Below, in pieces: positions 29,445-34,675 of a stretch of 34,675 nucleotides of DNA. Both the position numbers and the translations under genes were made by a program. This stretch comes from a bacterium (lineage in GTDB: Bacteria > Armatimonadota > Chthonomonadetes > Chthonomonadales > CAJBBX01), in contig JAJZOL010000231.1 in NCBI GenBank assembly GCA_021811565.1, forward strand, positions 1 through 34,675, given 5' to 3'. The notes under the pieces were generated by a model that ran no database searches, had not been told where the DNA came from, and saw only the letters and a list, made by a program, of their open reading frames with translations. Numbering within the stretch: position 1 is the stretch's first letter; the number at the start of each line of letters is the position of its first letter.

Positions 29445-30314
29445 ATGAATGGCAATGGCTTGAGAACGGACGATTGGCTTAAAAAACGATTGGAGAGATT
29501 AATCGAGCTACACTATTCCGATGTCAATCGGGGCTATCCGATCCGCATACGATTTGGTTCGCGCGCCCGATTCCGTTTCGGATCCATCTACTCCGTCAAT
29601 GAAGAGTGTCACATTCTCATCAATAAACTGTTCGCCTATCCCGAAGTCCCGGAATACGTCGTGGATTCCACTTTGGTTCATGAGTTGGCGCATTATGTGC
29701 ACGGATACGGATCGGGTCTGCGAAAAATGCACGCTCAGCCGCATCGCGGGGGCGTTGTGGACGAGGAAATGCGCAAACGCGGATGCGATCATTACGAAAT
29801 CGATGCGGCGGAATGGCGTAGATTGCATTGGAGAAACCTGTACGATCTCCATGCAAAAGATATCATAGACAAAAAGTCCGAACGGGAAAACCGGGATATC
29901 GCGATCTGGGAAAGATATCTGAAAACCCCTGGCTTCCATACGGAGGAGGAGTTAAGATCGCGATGGGGATACCTGAAACAGGTGTTTGATCAAACTGAAA
30001 ATGACACGAAAATTGAATGGCTCCACGGTTCCTTGCATCAAAACGGTTTGTCTTATCGTTATGGCAAGGAGGGCGTGGTACGCATGCACGGCGTTCTCGC
30101 CAACAAATCCGTTCCCGACTATGTCCTTGATTACGAAATGATCTATTGGCTCGCCGAGATGTCCTGTGACGGTTGGAGAGAGATCGAGGAAACCATAAAA
30201 AGGGCGGGGCTCTGGTCGACAGCGGAGAAGGCGATCGCATGGCGCACTCATCGTTGGAAAGGGTTTCTGAGGAAAAATCACCCTCTGCGCAAGAGAGCCG
30301 CCATCCAACAATAA
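29445..30314 (+). CDS. SprT-like metallopeptidase-type protein with a degenerate second copy
   Basis: The first half carries a zinc-peptidase motif HELAH (residues 79-83 from ATG 29445) in STLVHELAHYVHGYGSG. More histidines follow (KMHAQPHRGG), as in SprT/M48-like domains. The second half (about 190-285) repeats the pattern ...VPDYVLDYEMIYWLAEMS, aligning with VPEYVVDSTLVHELAHYV but lacking both histidines. The product is 289 aa, with no signal peptide or membrane span, so it is cytoplasmic. GAGGGA 11 bases before ATG 29445 favours it over GTG 29436. Substrate unknown. Confidence 0.72.
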   Translation: MNGNGLRTDDWLKKRLERLIELHYSDVNRGYPIRIRFGSRARFRFGSIYSVNEECHILINKLFAYPEVPEYVVDSTLVHELAHYVHGYGSGLRKMHAQPHRGGVVDEEMRKRGCDHYEIDAAEWRRLHWRNLYDLHAKDIIDKKSERENRDIAIWERYLKTPGFHTEEELRSRWGYLKQVFDQTENDTKIEWLHGSLHQNGLSYRYGKEGVVRMHGVLANKSVPDYVLDYEMIYWLAEMSCDGWREIEETIKRAGLWSTAEKAIAWRTHRWKGFLRKNHPLRKRAAIQQ

Positions 30315-30352
30315 TCCATTCGCGACTATGCGACATCAAATAGGGGGTTACA

Positions 30353-32392
30353 ATGCGCAAGGAACCATCCGGCGGCAAGAAAGTTACGAGGAGGATAGCT
30401 GGCTCCTCGCGAAGAGAGTTCCTCGGAAAGGTGAGCATGGCAACGGGTTTGCTGCTTGCAGGACTTCCGAATGCCCATGCGCTTCTCGATTCTTCGGCGA
30501 CAGCCACCGAATCCATTGGAGCCACCCTAATCCCCTTCTATACCGGCAATCTCAGCGTAACACCTTTCATGATATACTGGGGAACGGCGAAGAAGTCCGC
30601 CCTACCGGTTAAGGAAGTGGATTCCACCCTCCTCTCCACCCTGCGCAGGATCAGCGTTTTCGCGGACGTGGATTATCTGGCGTGGTGCCTTGCGGAAAAG
30701 AACAAGGGCACATGGGACTTCTCCTACTACGCCAACAACGCCAAGAGTCTGAACGAAGCTGGATTCAAATACGTCGTTTTCTGCTGGGTGCACTTCCCCC
30801 CGAAATGGGCGAAGGAGGGTGGGGATTTCACCCCTTACGCACGTTTGGAGGACGGGGTGACGACAAGGCAATTGTCGCCATGGGATCCTCGATTTAAAGA
30901 GATTTACGATAGGTTTTACGCAGCACTGAGTCACTCTCTCGGTTCGCGTATCGACTTCCTGCGCGTGGGATATCCGTCGGAGTACGGCGAGATGGGTTAT
31001 CCGAACGGAATGACCACCTGGCTCGTGCCGCAGGAGCATTCCGGTCCGGGATTCTGGTGCGCCGATCCCCATGCGAAGGCCGATTTCCGGCGAGTTTTTC
31101 TCGAACGCTACGGCTCGATTGCGGCGATAAACAAAGCATGGGGAACGGAATTCGCAAACGAACAGGATATCTCCATGCCGGAGGCGGTTAACTACGCCAC
31201 AGCCACTCTGGGGCGTAACCACGCGAACGTACAGGCTCGGTACCGATGGTTGGATTTCGTGAATTGGTATCAGGATCACGTGGATATATGCTTTAGCGCC
31301 ATATGCGAGGTGATCCGCCGCCACTTTCCGGGCAAAAGACTCGTGGGCAGCCTTGGATACGGGAGCGAGCAGTGCCGCTACGGTAACGACACCAGCCGAC
31401 ATGTGAAGATGCTGAAGAGGATCAACGCCTGTGCCCAGACACCCGGGGCGATCGGTTATTTCGCCACGCGCAGGGTCTCCAGCGCCTGCCATTTCTACAA
31501 AACACCATACTACACGGAACCGCCGGGAACGGTAGACCCCATGGATGAGATAAAACGCATCTGGATGGACTCCACAAACGGCTGTCAAGTCTATTTCGAC
31601 TATCCCAACAACCTAAATGGTGCCATCCCGGAGTTCAAGGAGTATAAAAAACTACTGAACGGCGATCGCTCCATCACGGATTTCGCATACCTCTTTCCAA
31701 GCTCCTCCTTCTGGCTGGAGGCTTCAACGGATTGGCCCATCATGACTTACGAACTCGGCGAACACCTGCGCTATCGTCTGGATTACGAGCTCATTGACGA
31801 GCAAATGATACAGGACGGTGCCTTGCAGGCGATGGGGATCAAAACGCTTGCTTGGGTTGAGGGAGCCTTTGCTGACGCTAAAACGCTCGATATGATCCGC
31901 AAATGGTTGGAGGACGGCGGGGTTTTGATCCGCCGAAAGAACGGCGAGATGTACGATCTGGAAGGACGCGAAGTAGACTGGCTGCACGGTCTCTCCGCAG
32001 GAGACTGTACTCAGGATTTTCAGCGGGTTTGGCGAGATTCCCTCCATTCCCTCGGAGAAGGAAAATTGCTGTTGATACAGGCGGAAGATTCCAACATGGA
32101 GCGTTTCGCGCGATGCATGCTGGAGTTCTCGGTGAACCGAACGCTTTACGGCGGCTCCGGGATGACGAACACTATGGATCTCAATCCCGATAACATTACG
32201 GATGTCTATTTAAGCCTATTCAAGGATCGCATCCTGATACTCAACGACTCCCGTACCAGCGCAGTCGATTTCCCCTTGAGATTGCGAGAAGAGGATTTCC
32301 GCAAGCGACATCTTCCCCTTCCGGAGACTCTCATCGCGACAATTCATATTCCGCCTCGTTCCATACGCACGATTCGGCTTAAAAAGGGATAA
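30353..32392 (+). CDS. Tat-exported GH42-like (beta-galactosidase-type) TIM-barrel protein
   Basis: The 679-aa product begins with a twin-arginine signal (SRREFLG at 19-25, followed by a weakly hydrophobic run to AHA). The next 400 residues look like a glycoside-hydrolase barrel: WDFSYYANNAKSLNEAGFKYVVFCWVHFPPKW, then DFLRVGYPSEYGEMGYP, then INKAWGTEFANEQDI and FVNWYQDHVDICF. These resemble GH42 and GH14-type enzymes, with E in SEYGE a candidate catalytic residue. The C-terminal 230 residues resemble the trimerisation-like domain of GH42 (LEDGGVLIRRKNGEMYD). The substrate is not predictable. Confidence 0.72.
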   Translation: MRKEPSGGKKVTRRIAGSSRREFLGKVSMATGLLLAGLPNAHALLDSSATATESIGATLIPFYTGNLSVTPFMIYWGTAKKSALPVKEVDSTLLSTLRRISVFADVDYLAWCLAEKNKGTWDFSYYANNAKSLNEAGFKYVVFCWVHFPPKWAKEGGDFTPYARLEDGVTTRQLSPWDPRFKEIYDRFYAALSHSLGSRIDFLRVGYPSEYGEMGYPNGMTTWLVPQEHSGPGFWCADPHAKADFRRVFLERYGSIAAINKAWGTEFANEQDISMPEAVNYATATLGRNHANVQARYRWLDFVNWYQDHVDICFSAICEVIRRHFPGKRLVGSLGYGSEQCRYGNDTSRHVKMLKRINACAQTPGAIGYFATRRVSSACHFYKTPYYTEPPGTVDPMDEIKRIWMDSTNGCQVYFDYPNNLNGAIPEFKEYKKLLNGDRSITDFAYLFPSSSFWLEASTDWPIMTYELGEHLRYRLDYELIDEQMIQDGALQAMGIKTLAWVEGAFADAKTLDMIRKWLEDGGVLIRRKNGEMYDLEGREVDWLHGLSAGDCTQDFQRVWRDSLHSLGEGKLLLIQAEDSNMERFARCMLEFSVNRTLYGGSGMTNTMDLNPDNITDVYLSLFKDRILILNDSRTSAVDFPLRLREEDFRKRHLPLPETLIATIHIPPRSIRTIRLKKG

Positions 32393-32479
32393 ACTATTTC
32401 CGTATTTGGCGGAAGCGAGGCTTCAAATGCATGAGATGACCTCCGTTCCGCGGAAATGAAATAATTGGAGGAGGTTTGC

Positions 32480-32740
32480 ATGTCCGAGCCCGCTCTTTGG
32501 ACCGGGATGGCTGTATTGTTTGTGCTCACTAGCCTGTTGCATTTCGGCAAGGCGATCAGGAAGTCTGATAACCGTCGGTCGGCTCGCATCGCTCTCGGCG
32601 TCTCCAGCCTCTGTTGGGCTGCGTCCGCCCTTCTTTTTCGCTTCTACACTCCCATTACAGCGTATTGCTTCGCCGGCATGGGTGTTGTATGCATTATCGC
32701 GGGAGGAATCGTATCCGCAAGGAACAGGACTGGGATTTAA
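32480..32740 (+). CDS. Small three-span membrane protein
   Basis: From ATG 32480, preceded by GGAGGAGG, this gives 86 aa; the track starts five codons earlier at a TTG that lies inside the ribosome binding site. Three hydrophobic segments are visible (about 8-24, 39-54, 58-77). No family is recognised. It ends 12 bases before the tRNA gene, which is on the other strand. Confidence 0.6.
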   Translation: MSEPALWTGMAVLFVLTSLLHFGKAIRKSDNRRSARIALGVSSLCWAASALLFRFYTPITAYCFAGMGVVCIIAGGIVSARNRTGI

Positions 32741-32752
32741 AGGGATGTTGCA

Positions 32753-32835
32753 TGCCGGAGAAGGGAGTCGAACCCCCACGCGGTTGCCCGCAAGTGATTT
32801 TGAGTCACCCGTGTCTGCCATTCCACCACTCCGGC
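32753..32835 (-). tRNA. tRNA-Leu (anticodon CAA)
   Basis: Read on the minus strand, the acceptor arms GCCGGAG and CTCCGGC pair over 7 bases with discriminator A. The anticodon loop is CTCAAAA, giving anticodon CAA, in a GGTGA/TCACT stem. A long variable arm (TGCGGGCAACCGCG) marks a class II tRNA, and GGTTCGACTCC is the T-loop. CCA is not encoded. Confidence 0.95.
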
Positions 32836-32845
32836 ATGGATGTAT

Positions 32846-32875
32846 ATTATAGAACATGTTCGAAGGGGATGTCAA
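32846..32875 (-). promoter_or_regulatory. Consensus promoter of the tRNA-Leu gene
   Basis: On the minus strand TTGACA (32870-32875) and TATAAT (32846-32851) are spaced by 18 bases and end 11 bases before the tRNA 5' end. Both hexamers match consensus perfectly. Confidence 0.88.
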
Positions 32876-33011
32876 ATTTCAAACGATCCGTAGAAAGGAA
32901 GTTGCCGCTCAATTTCACTTTTTTTCTGAATTAACAAAGGATGCGGAATTGGAGGAAAGACGAGATTTTTATGACTGCCATGCATTACAAATAATGGAAA
33001 TTGGTATGTTG

Positions 33012-33130
33012 GAGTGTGTTGCATAAATATAATCAGAATCAGTGCGCATACAATATATCGGATATATAACGGCTTGATTATGCATATATTGTATCAGTGT
33101 GCGGTTCAAATACATTTGTGCAACACACTC
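33012..33130. mobile_element. MITE-like 119-bp inverted-repeat element with 8-bp target duplication
   Basis: The ends GAGTGTGTTGCATAAATATA (33012-33031) and the complement of 33111-33130 match at 18 of 20 positions. An exact 8-bp direct repeat GTATGTTG flanks the element (33004-33011 and 33131-33138), which is a target-site duplication. A second perfect 11-bp inverted pair, ATACAATATAT/ATATATTGTAT (33048-33058 and 33084-33094), shares the same centre. There is no transposase gene. The termini loosely resemble IS5/IS903-type ends (GTTGMATAAAT), which is a guess. The remaining bases of the gap between the tRNA promoter and the sigma factor hold nothing I can name. Confidence 0.8.
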
Positions 33131-33158
33131 GTATGTTGATACTCTTTTTAAGCTCCCC

Positions 33159-33761
33159 CTATTTTATACATCGCTTTAAAATTCGCCGAAGGCGGCATGT
33201 TATTCTGTATAGACTCTGCCTCACGGACCGCTCGGATAGCTTCATGGAGAGCGCTATATCCCTAATCGATTCCCCGTTTCTGAAATGCCGCCGATACAGG
33301 TCGCGTTGGCGAGGGGTGAGAAACTCCGCCATCCCGTCCATCATCTCCATAAGCTCCTCATCGATTAGTTCCTGTACCGGATCGGTGAGAACCGAGCTGT
33401 TCCGAAACTCCTCCCATTCCTGCGAAGTCAAATGAACCTCTAAGCCATCATGACGCCGAATTTTCTCGTCGAAATCGATGGCATGGTTTTTCGCGCATTT
33501 GAAGACGTATTGAACGCTGCACATCCCGTTCGCCCTCTTCTCTAGCATCTCGACGCTCTCGCAGAAAGCCTTGATGAGAAACTCCTGGGCGCAATCCTTG
33601 GCGTTCTCCGGCGTAATGCGATACCGAATAATCCAGAATCGAATTGCGCGCATCAGGCAGGTCTCGCATACGGCGTAGGAGCGAGCGGGGCATCGACTCC
33701 CGGAATCATATGGAGTTAATCGCGGAGACTTTATCTCGAACTCGGAGTTGGCAAGGGTCAT
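33159..33761 (-). CDS. Sigma-70 family (ECF-like) RNA polymerase sigma factor
   Basis: The 200-aa product has a region 2-like segment (ENAKDCAQEFLIKAF ... YVFKCAKNHAIDFDEKIRRHD, about 52-105). Region 4 (about 148-196, LTPRQRDLYRRHFRNGESIRDIALSMKLSERSVRQSLYRITCRLRRIL) is a helix-turn-helix for the -35 element. Region 3 is absent, as in ECF factors. The N-terminal 35 residues contain three cysteines (RCPARSYAVCETC) that could be redox- or zinc-sensing. No anti-sigma gene is adjacent. AGGAGG before ATG 33761 supports the start. Confidence 0.85.
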   Translation of the reverse strand: MTLANSEFEIKSPRLTPYDSGSRCPARSYAVCETCLMRAIRFWIIRYRITPENAKDCAQEFLIKAFCESVEMLEKRANGMCSVQYVFKCAKNHAIDFDEKIRRHDGLEVHLTSQEWEEFRNSSVLTDPVQELIDEELMEMMDGMAEFLTPRQRDLYRRHFRNGESIRDIALSMKLSERSVRQSLYRITCRLRRILKRCIK

Positions 33762-33808
33762 GTTTACCTCCTACCGGAGATGAAAAAAACGCAACGAAAC
33801 GCAAGGCA

Positions 33809-33836
33809 ATTATATCAAAATTCACGGAATTGTCAA
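33809..33836 (-). promoter_or_regulatory. Consensus promoter of the sigma-factor gene
   Basis: On the minus strand TTGACA (33831-33836) and TATAAT (33809-33814) are spaced by 16 bases, about 50 bases upstream of the ATG. Confidence 0.8.
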
Positions 33837-33968
33837 GCGTTTTTTTATTTTAAGGCTTGTCGTACAAGTAATCCAAAGTTCGGCGAGTGCGCATTGTGAA
33901 TTGGGGTGTTTCCAACAATAGACGACCCGGTTCGATTTATGAAACTTCGCAATCGCCATAAGTAATCA

Positions 33969-34675
33969 TTACGCCACCCAGCGCCCCAGAGCGAAAAGAA
34001 CCATGAAAAACCCGGAGAGACATGCGAACAGAGGCAGGATCGAATCCCGCAGGCTCCCGCGCCGAGTCATCAGCGCAAGGGAGAGAAAGAGCGGAAAGAT
34101 ATCTAAATCGTAACGCATCATGGAAACCAGCAGTCCCGAGGAGATGATCACCAGCAGAGTCAATGCGGAATAGATCACATAACTCCCACGCATTATTCCC
34201 CAGGAATATACGACCAATACAATGGAAAGCAGGGTGAACGCAAGATCAATCATGGAGTGATCCGGTCCATGAACCACCAATGGGGAGTTGAAAAAATTGG
34301 CGAGGACAATCCAAGGCGCCGCCGGAATTCTATCCCATGAAGCTTGGGAAGTCACAAATATGAAAGGGTTATGATACTTCTCATACATATAAAGAGGCCA
34401 AATCGAAAAAATAACTCCAATCAAACCTATCCAAAGGACATCCCAGCGGATGCGGCGGATATGGAAATGGAGTTGATCCGCATATTCATAGAGATAAGGA
34501 ATCATTAGGAGGATCCCATATGGTCTCGCAATCGCGGCGAGCCCTCCTAACAACCCCGCCAACATCCAGCTGCCCTTTCGAGCGCTGTAAAAAGAGATAA
34601 GCGCTATGGCGAGAAAAAGGGATTCCGGATAGACTGCGGAGAGAAAGAGAGTGGAAGGGAAAACAAGCAGGAACA
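33969..34675 (-). CDS. PIG-V-like membrane mannosyltransferase (5' end outside window)
   Basis: The track begins at an internal ATG (34565), but the frame stays open to the window edge and continues the family pattern. FLLVFPSTLFLSAVYPESLFLAIALISFYSARKGSW leads into MLAGLLGGLAAIARPYGILLMIPYLYEY. The SAVYPESLF and ARPYG motifs are those of bacterial PIG-V/GPI mannosyltransferase-2-like proteins, which use polyprenyl-phosphate sugars. About seven more spans follow in the remaining sequence. The product is at least 235 aa, with the N terminus missing. The acceptor is unknown. Confidence 0.75.
   Translation of the reverse strand, partial: FLLVFPSTLFLSAVYPESLFLAIALISFYSARKGSWMLAGLLGGLAAIARPYGILLMIPYLYEYADQLHFHIRRIRWDVLWIGLIGVIFSIWPLYMYEKYHNPFIFVTSQASWDRIPAAPWIVLANFFNSPLVVHGPDHSMIDLAFTLLSIVLVVYSWGIMRGSYVIYSALTLLVIISSGLLVSMMRYDLDIFPLFLSLALMTRRGSLRDSILPLFACLSGFFMVLFALGRWVA

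Follow-up and report, generated by a model that had tools for sequence, protein, structure and literature searches.

A recently spread MITE family and its probable parent insertion sequence in an Armatimonadota genome

Introduction

Is the short hairpin that lies behind a sigma-like gene in this genome a structured RNA of that gene, or a mobile element that landed beside it? The hairpin lies in a 34,675-nucleotide stretch of DNA (the window), and a sequence-only reading had proposed that it is a complete, non-autonomous MITE-like element with an 8-bp target duplication and a parent at some other place in the genome. MITEs are a well-known element type; the family described here, MITE1, is a newly found example, and its oddity is the 8-base repeat that flanks the window copy.

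Results

The window element is an ordered, geneless unit

The architecture proposed for the 119-bp window element was found as described (Table 1). Its 20-nt inverted ends are complementary at 18 of 20 positions (90%), the nested inverted pair is 100% complementary over 11 nt, both pairs share the centre 33071, and exact copies of GTATGTTG flank the unit, with the stop codon of the sigma-like gene starting 20 nt past the second copy. For one pair of flanks, an exact 8-bp match is expected by chance about once in 65,000 (~1.5e-5). No transposase or other identified gene lies inside the 119 bp. When folded as DNA, the element scored z = -4.3 and none of 200 shuffles folded equally well, and its minus-strand RNA folded at -34.6 kcal/mol (z -3.55), so the structure of the window element goes beyond chance.

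Table 1. Features of the window locus (window positions) and copies of a second MITE-like family (locus positions)
Feature	Position	Strand	Remarks
119-bp MITE copy (family MITE1)	33012..33130	.	23 full-length genome copies, 91-96% identity to window copy
Left terminal inverted repeat, GAGTGTGTTGCATAAATATA	33012..33031	+	15/18 match to candidate parent IS left end
Right terminal inverted repeat, inward reading, GAGTGTGTTGCACAAATGTA	33111..33130	-	16/18 match to candidate parent IS right end
Nested 11-bp inverted pair, left arm, ATACAATATAT	33048..33058	.	
Nested 11-bp inverted pair, right arm, ATATATTGTAT	33084..33094	.	
8-bp flanking repeat, left copy, GTATGTTG	33004..33011	.	probable target duplication, atypical length
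8-bp flanking repeat, right copy, GTATGTTG	33131..33138	.	
Sigma-like gene, sigma-70 region 4 protein	33159-33761	minus	Pfam Sigma70_r4_2 PF08281, E 1.9e-6
tRNA-Leu(CAA) gene	32752-32836	minus	other side of element from sigma-like gene
Second MITE-like family, window's own genome	L011:1618-1711, L012:1620-1709, L013 and L015 flanks		
Second MITE-like family, congener genome G001	L194:2231-2320, L232:2991-3080, others		

MITE1 is multicopy in one genome and was not found in the relatives searched

The window's own genome (G000; a draft of 4,007,490 bases in 248 contigs, 92% complete) contains 23 full-length copies including that of the window (E 9e-57 to 5e-42), and the similarity of the 22 others to the window copy extends across their full length. 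This recurrence of the 119-bp unit 23 times in the genome is the strongest evidence for a real element. It supplies the multiple copies with the same ends that the sequence-only reading had proposed to look for, and the outcome named there as fatal, a sequence unique in the genome, did not occur. With all copies oriented one way, they differed from each other at a mean of 6.8 positions, and the window copy differed from the consensus at 3. Under a crude open reading frame model, 17 of the 23 copies overlap no frame of at least 100 aa. A second MITE-like family harbours four of the copies, and a third small repeat has two in it or beside it, so MITE1 seems often to insert into other small repeats, themselves neutral landing sites.

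The second family is ~90 bp long, has the ends AGGTAATTGCAAAATTC / GAATTTTGCAATTACCT and is present both in this genome and in the congener G001. The third repeat (TTATTAAATC.GCAATT ends) was seen at L019:1621-1708 and L022:1620-1725; it is absent from G001 at the L022 site.

Searches with the full element across 101 genomes (its own and 100 relatives) found no MITE1 outside its own genome. The pattern of the MITE1 ends, with up to one mismatch, occurred 41 times in that genome; across 291 genomes of the phylum, no other had more than one occurrence, indicating that these ends form a family only in this genome of that set. Those one-mismatch matches elsewhere in the phylum that were inspected either fell in coding sequence or stood alone, and none had a paired end. 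The ends of MITE1 and of the candidate parent described below matched nothing in plasmids or phages, and no paired ends of either were found in viral contigs.

Empty sites place the insertions after the split from the congener

We compared these loci with G001, the closest relative, a same-genus genome of about 90% DNA identity, by local alignment of 80 stretches. At seven copies (L002, L006, L014, L017, L018, L020 and L022), G001 has a clean empty site, with continuous flanks, a single 4-bp target and no element, and at L015 it lacks both MITE1 and the second-family repeat that MITE1 had entered. These empty sites indicate that MITE1 arrived by insertion and, together with the 23 copies sharing the same ends, they support the proposal of a non-autonomous transposed element. 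MITE1 is thus short and multicopy, lacks coding capacity, and has terminal inverted repeats, target duplications and empty sites, as is generic for MITEs. Its spread is recent, within one lineage after the split from the nearest sequenced congener.

At the window locus itself, positions 29466-32876 and 33202-34321 align to contig C5 of G001, with the flanking genes conserved and collinear and an ortholog of the sigma-like protein present. The intergenic stretch has diverged (154 bp in G001 vs 325 bp in the window), and the alignment revealed no MITE1 in the orthologous interval between the sigma-like gene and the tRNA gene. Since the flanking genes are collinear and the element is absent from G001, the window insertion is specific to this lineage; the pre-insertion sequence is not readable there because the intergenic region has diverged. 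The flanks of the window copy (32877-33011 and 33131-33230) were not found as repeats among the sequences compared.

These data also bear on whether the hairpin is instead a conserved structured RNA, or a terminator or attenuator serving the sigma-like gene, and is repeated by coincidence. The strong minus-strand fold and its position just 3' of the gene would suit such a role. We nevertheless regard it as highly improbable, since the orthologous interval of G001 lacks the element, and with it the hairpin at a conserved site in relatives that the sequence-only reading had named as contrary evidence. Furthermore, stem changes across the 23 copies are one-sided, several of them pair-breaking and none compensatory, no run of T follows the hairpin, and Rfam returned only a sub-threshold match to a plant microRNA, as expected by chance. 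The 23 copies adjoin unrelated genes and have target duplications, which likewise argues for a transposed element rather than an RNA. The hairpin lies 3' of the stop codon and most likely has little effect on the sigma-like gene, and annotators should not take it for a regulatory RNA.

Target duplications are 4 bp long except at the window copy

The 4-bp flanks are identical in 19 of the 22 other MITE1 copies and differ by one base in the remaining three, compared with 7 matches in 506 when left and right flanks were mispaired as a control. At the window copy, the adjacent 4-mers (GTTG vs GTAT) do not match, yet the 8-mers GTATGTTG are identical; no other of the 23 copies has an 8-bp repeat, and a 9-bp flanking repeat is absent from all of them. 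With a 4-bp rule for MITE1 and 8 bp at the window, the window copy is atypical of its own family. Thus, the 8-bp target duplication put forward by the sequence-only reading is exact at this copy and does not extend to the family, whose duplication is 4 bp.

A candidate parent insertion sequence has similar ends and the same duplication length

When the genome was searched for MITE1-like ends, two longer sequences came up, both truncated where their contigs end. A left end, GAGCCTGTTGCATAAAT, is present at contigs C144 and C235, where the sequence starts GAGCCTGTTGCATAAATC and reaches ATG TCC TAC AAT TTC ATT; a right end, GAGTGTGTTGCGCAATTG, is present at C5, C95 and C145, where a frame ends ...IQSGLKTRRDGLFDRMTRSYKLPQ followed by a stop. 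The readable transposase of this candidate parent therefore consists of an MSYNFI start and ...LFDRMTRSYKLPQ. All of these ends are cut by contig ends, as expected of a repeated element.

Ahead of the left end, C144 closes with ...GACCATAG, and behind the right end C145 opens with ATAGGATACC; G001 joins the two regions as GACCATAGGATACC across a single ATAG, which flanks the IS on either side in the window's own genome. Since the two contigs are continuous with each other in G001 over one ATAG, they carry the two ends of one IS, with ATAG duplicated on insertion. The parent is accordingly a reconstruction from its ends and one synteny-supported junction, with assembly breaks inside the IS, and the assembly contains no transposase gene joining the two ends. 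As to a parent elsewhere in the genome, two IS halves with similar ends were found at contig ends, but no full-length parent carrying its transposase.

Each MITE1 end best matches the IS end of its own side (Table 1), and the local alignment of the right ends was better than all of 500 shuffles. The interiors show no clear relation, so MITE1 is at most a possible internal deletion derivative of the candidate IS. Nevertheless, the same 4-bp duplication and the side-specific similarity of the ends make the candidate IS the likely source of transposase, and we infer that it supplies this enzyme to MITE1 in trans.

Several features suggest that this parent is of IS1182 type. Like that family, the candidate has ends that begin GAGCCTGT and a transposase that starts MS-x-NFI, and a decayed copy of IS1182 type in G001 (C19:8852-9947; NCBIfam NF033551, E 1.2e-39) resembles it in both. 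In addition, the 17-nt left end of the parent is fused to an IS1182-type transposase fragment in a viral contig (L262). The target duplication of the IS1182 family is 4 bp, which agrees with the ATAG duplication at C144/C145 and its empty site in G001. A studied member, IS1272, differs in that it reportedly replaces stem-loops and leaves no target duplication (PMC5678879), in contrast with the duplications seen here, and folding the joined MITE1 flanks gave no clear pattern of IS1272-like hairpin targeting. A search of the genome with the IS1182 model found no copy with the candidate's ends, and the C-terminal peptide of the IS returned no relatives.

Other candidates were set aside. None of the DDE_Tnp_1 loci at C119, C211, C214 and C156 was shown to have MITE1 ends. 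The exact IS-end pattern gave one chance match in a wider contig search, inside a Polynucleobacter gene, and GAGTGTATTGCATGAT, seen at C31:434, C38:5537, C67:12005 and C145:777, represents codons shared by paralogous prepilin-like genes on the reverse strand rather than ends of an element.

Two of these transposase loci, C119:650-1420 (L068) and C214 (L070), hold broken, contig-truncated DDE_Tnp_1 (PF01609) genes whose visible ends are unrelated to MITE1. At C211 (L069), a broken IS5/IS1182-like DDE transposase gene is immediately preceded by an end sequence of the second MITE-like family.

Discussion

We estimate at roughly 0.93 the probability that MITE1 is a geneless element moved by the DDE transposase of a resident full-size IS, likely the GAGCCTGTTGCATAAAT/GAGTGTGTTGCGCAATTG element and probably of IS1182 type, and that it spread in this lineage after the split from its congener. 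The transposase, encoded by a full-size IS in the same genome, would recognise the ~18-bp ends of MITE1 (GAGTGTGTTGCRYAAWT...), cut out or copy the element and insert it at staggered cuts, and repair of a 4-bp stagger would normally yield a 4-bp target duplication. In this scheme, the likely parent is the IS with the ends named above, which would itself make 4-bp duplications. For a phylum in which few such elements have apparently been described, this adds a recently active MITE family together with its probable parent IS, and a real mobile element was found by reading a single sequence. Prepilin sequences, too, point to Armatimonadota as the probable phylum.

A close parallel is MITEAba12, a 113-bp element of the Moraxellaceae whose parent is ISAba12 and which makes 9-bp duplications (PMC6382973). 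Both elements are AT-rich, geneless and of similar length (113 and 119 bp), produce target duplications, and have imperfect ends of 16-20 bp with the common core TGTTGCAYAAA; MITEAba12 is moved in trans by a resident IS whose ends match its own, as is probable for MITE1 too. MITEAba12 differs in its ends (GGC rather than GAG), its 9-bp duplications, its interior and its unrelated hosts.

This likeness raises the question of whether a different IS, such as one of IS5/IS903 type with ends sharing TTGCAYAAAT, moved MITE1. The ends of ISAba10, GGCTTTGTTGCATAAATA / GGCTTTGTTGCACAAATA, do share TGTTGCATAAATA / TGTTGCACAAAT with MITE1 (PMC6382973). However, IS of the ISAba10 type give 9-bp duplications and begin with GGC, not GAG, while the 22 other MITE1 copies show 4-bp duplications, counting the three that are one base off. 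Moreover, the resident IS already combines GAG ends with a 4-bp duplication, and a search of the genome for IS5-type DDE_Tnp_1_2 genes found none above the cut-off. We therefore consider an IS5/IS903 parent quite unlikely and favor the resident GAGCCTGTTGCATAAAT/GAGTGTGTTGCGCAATTG element.

At the window copy, the 8-bp repeat appears to be a true but aberrant target duplication. It is probably real, and would stem from a wider stagger or else from something that happened later at the neighbouring 4-bp targets GTAT and GTTG. Such a later event could be, for example, a recombination between copies inserted 4 bp apart, at GTAT and at GTTG. GTATGTTG consists of exactly these two 4-mers side by side, and crossing the two insertion products would, by inference from the sequence, yield the observed arrangement; this history nevertheless requires two independent insertions within 4 bp, and we hold it as a tentative, rather doubtful explanation that concerns the window copy only. 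It is also unlikely, in our estimate, that a transposase with a usual stagger of 4 bp is capable of one of 8 bp, with the window copy representing a doubled target duplication. If true, the 8-bp stagger would reveal unusual flexibility of a DDE transpososome. Many 4-bp duplications beside one of 8 bp pose a small, testable question about the constancy of the stagger that such a transposase makes.

Three further observations concern the surroundings of the window copy. The stretch from the tRNA-Leu gene to the element (32877-33003) is without a counterpart in G001. Within it, a 15-bp imperfect inverted pair (32910-32924 / 32989-33003), which is not repeated in the sequences compared, stops exactly at the left GTATGTTG. 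On the plus strand, positions 30353-32392 encode a 679-aa protein matching Pfam glycoside hydrolase families 14 (E 4.9e-12) and 42 (E 1.4e-8).
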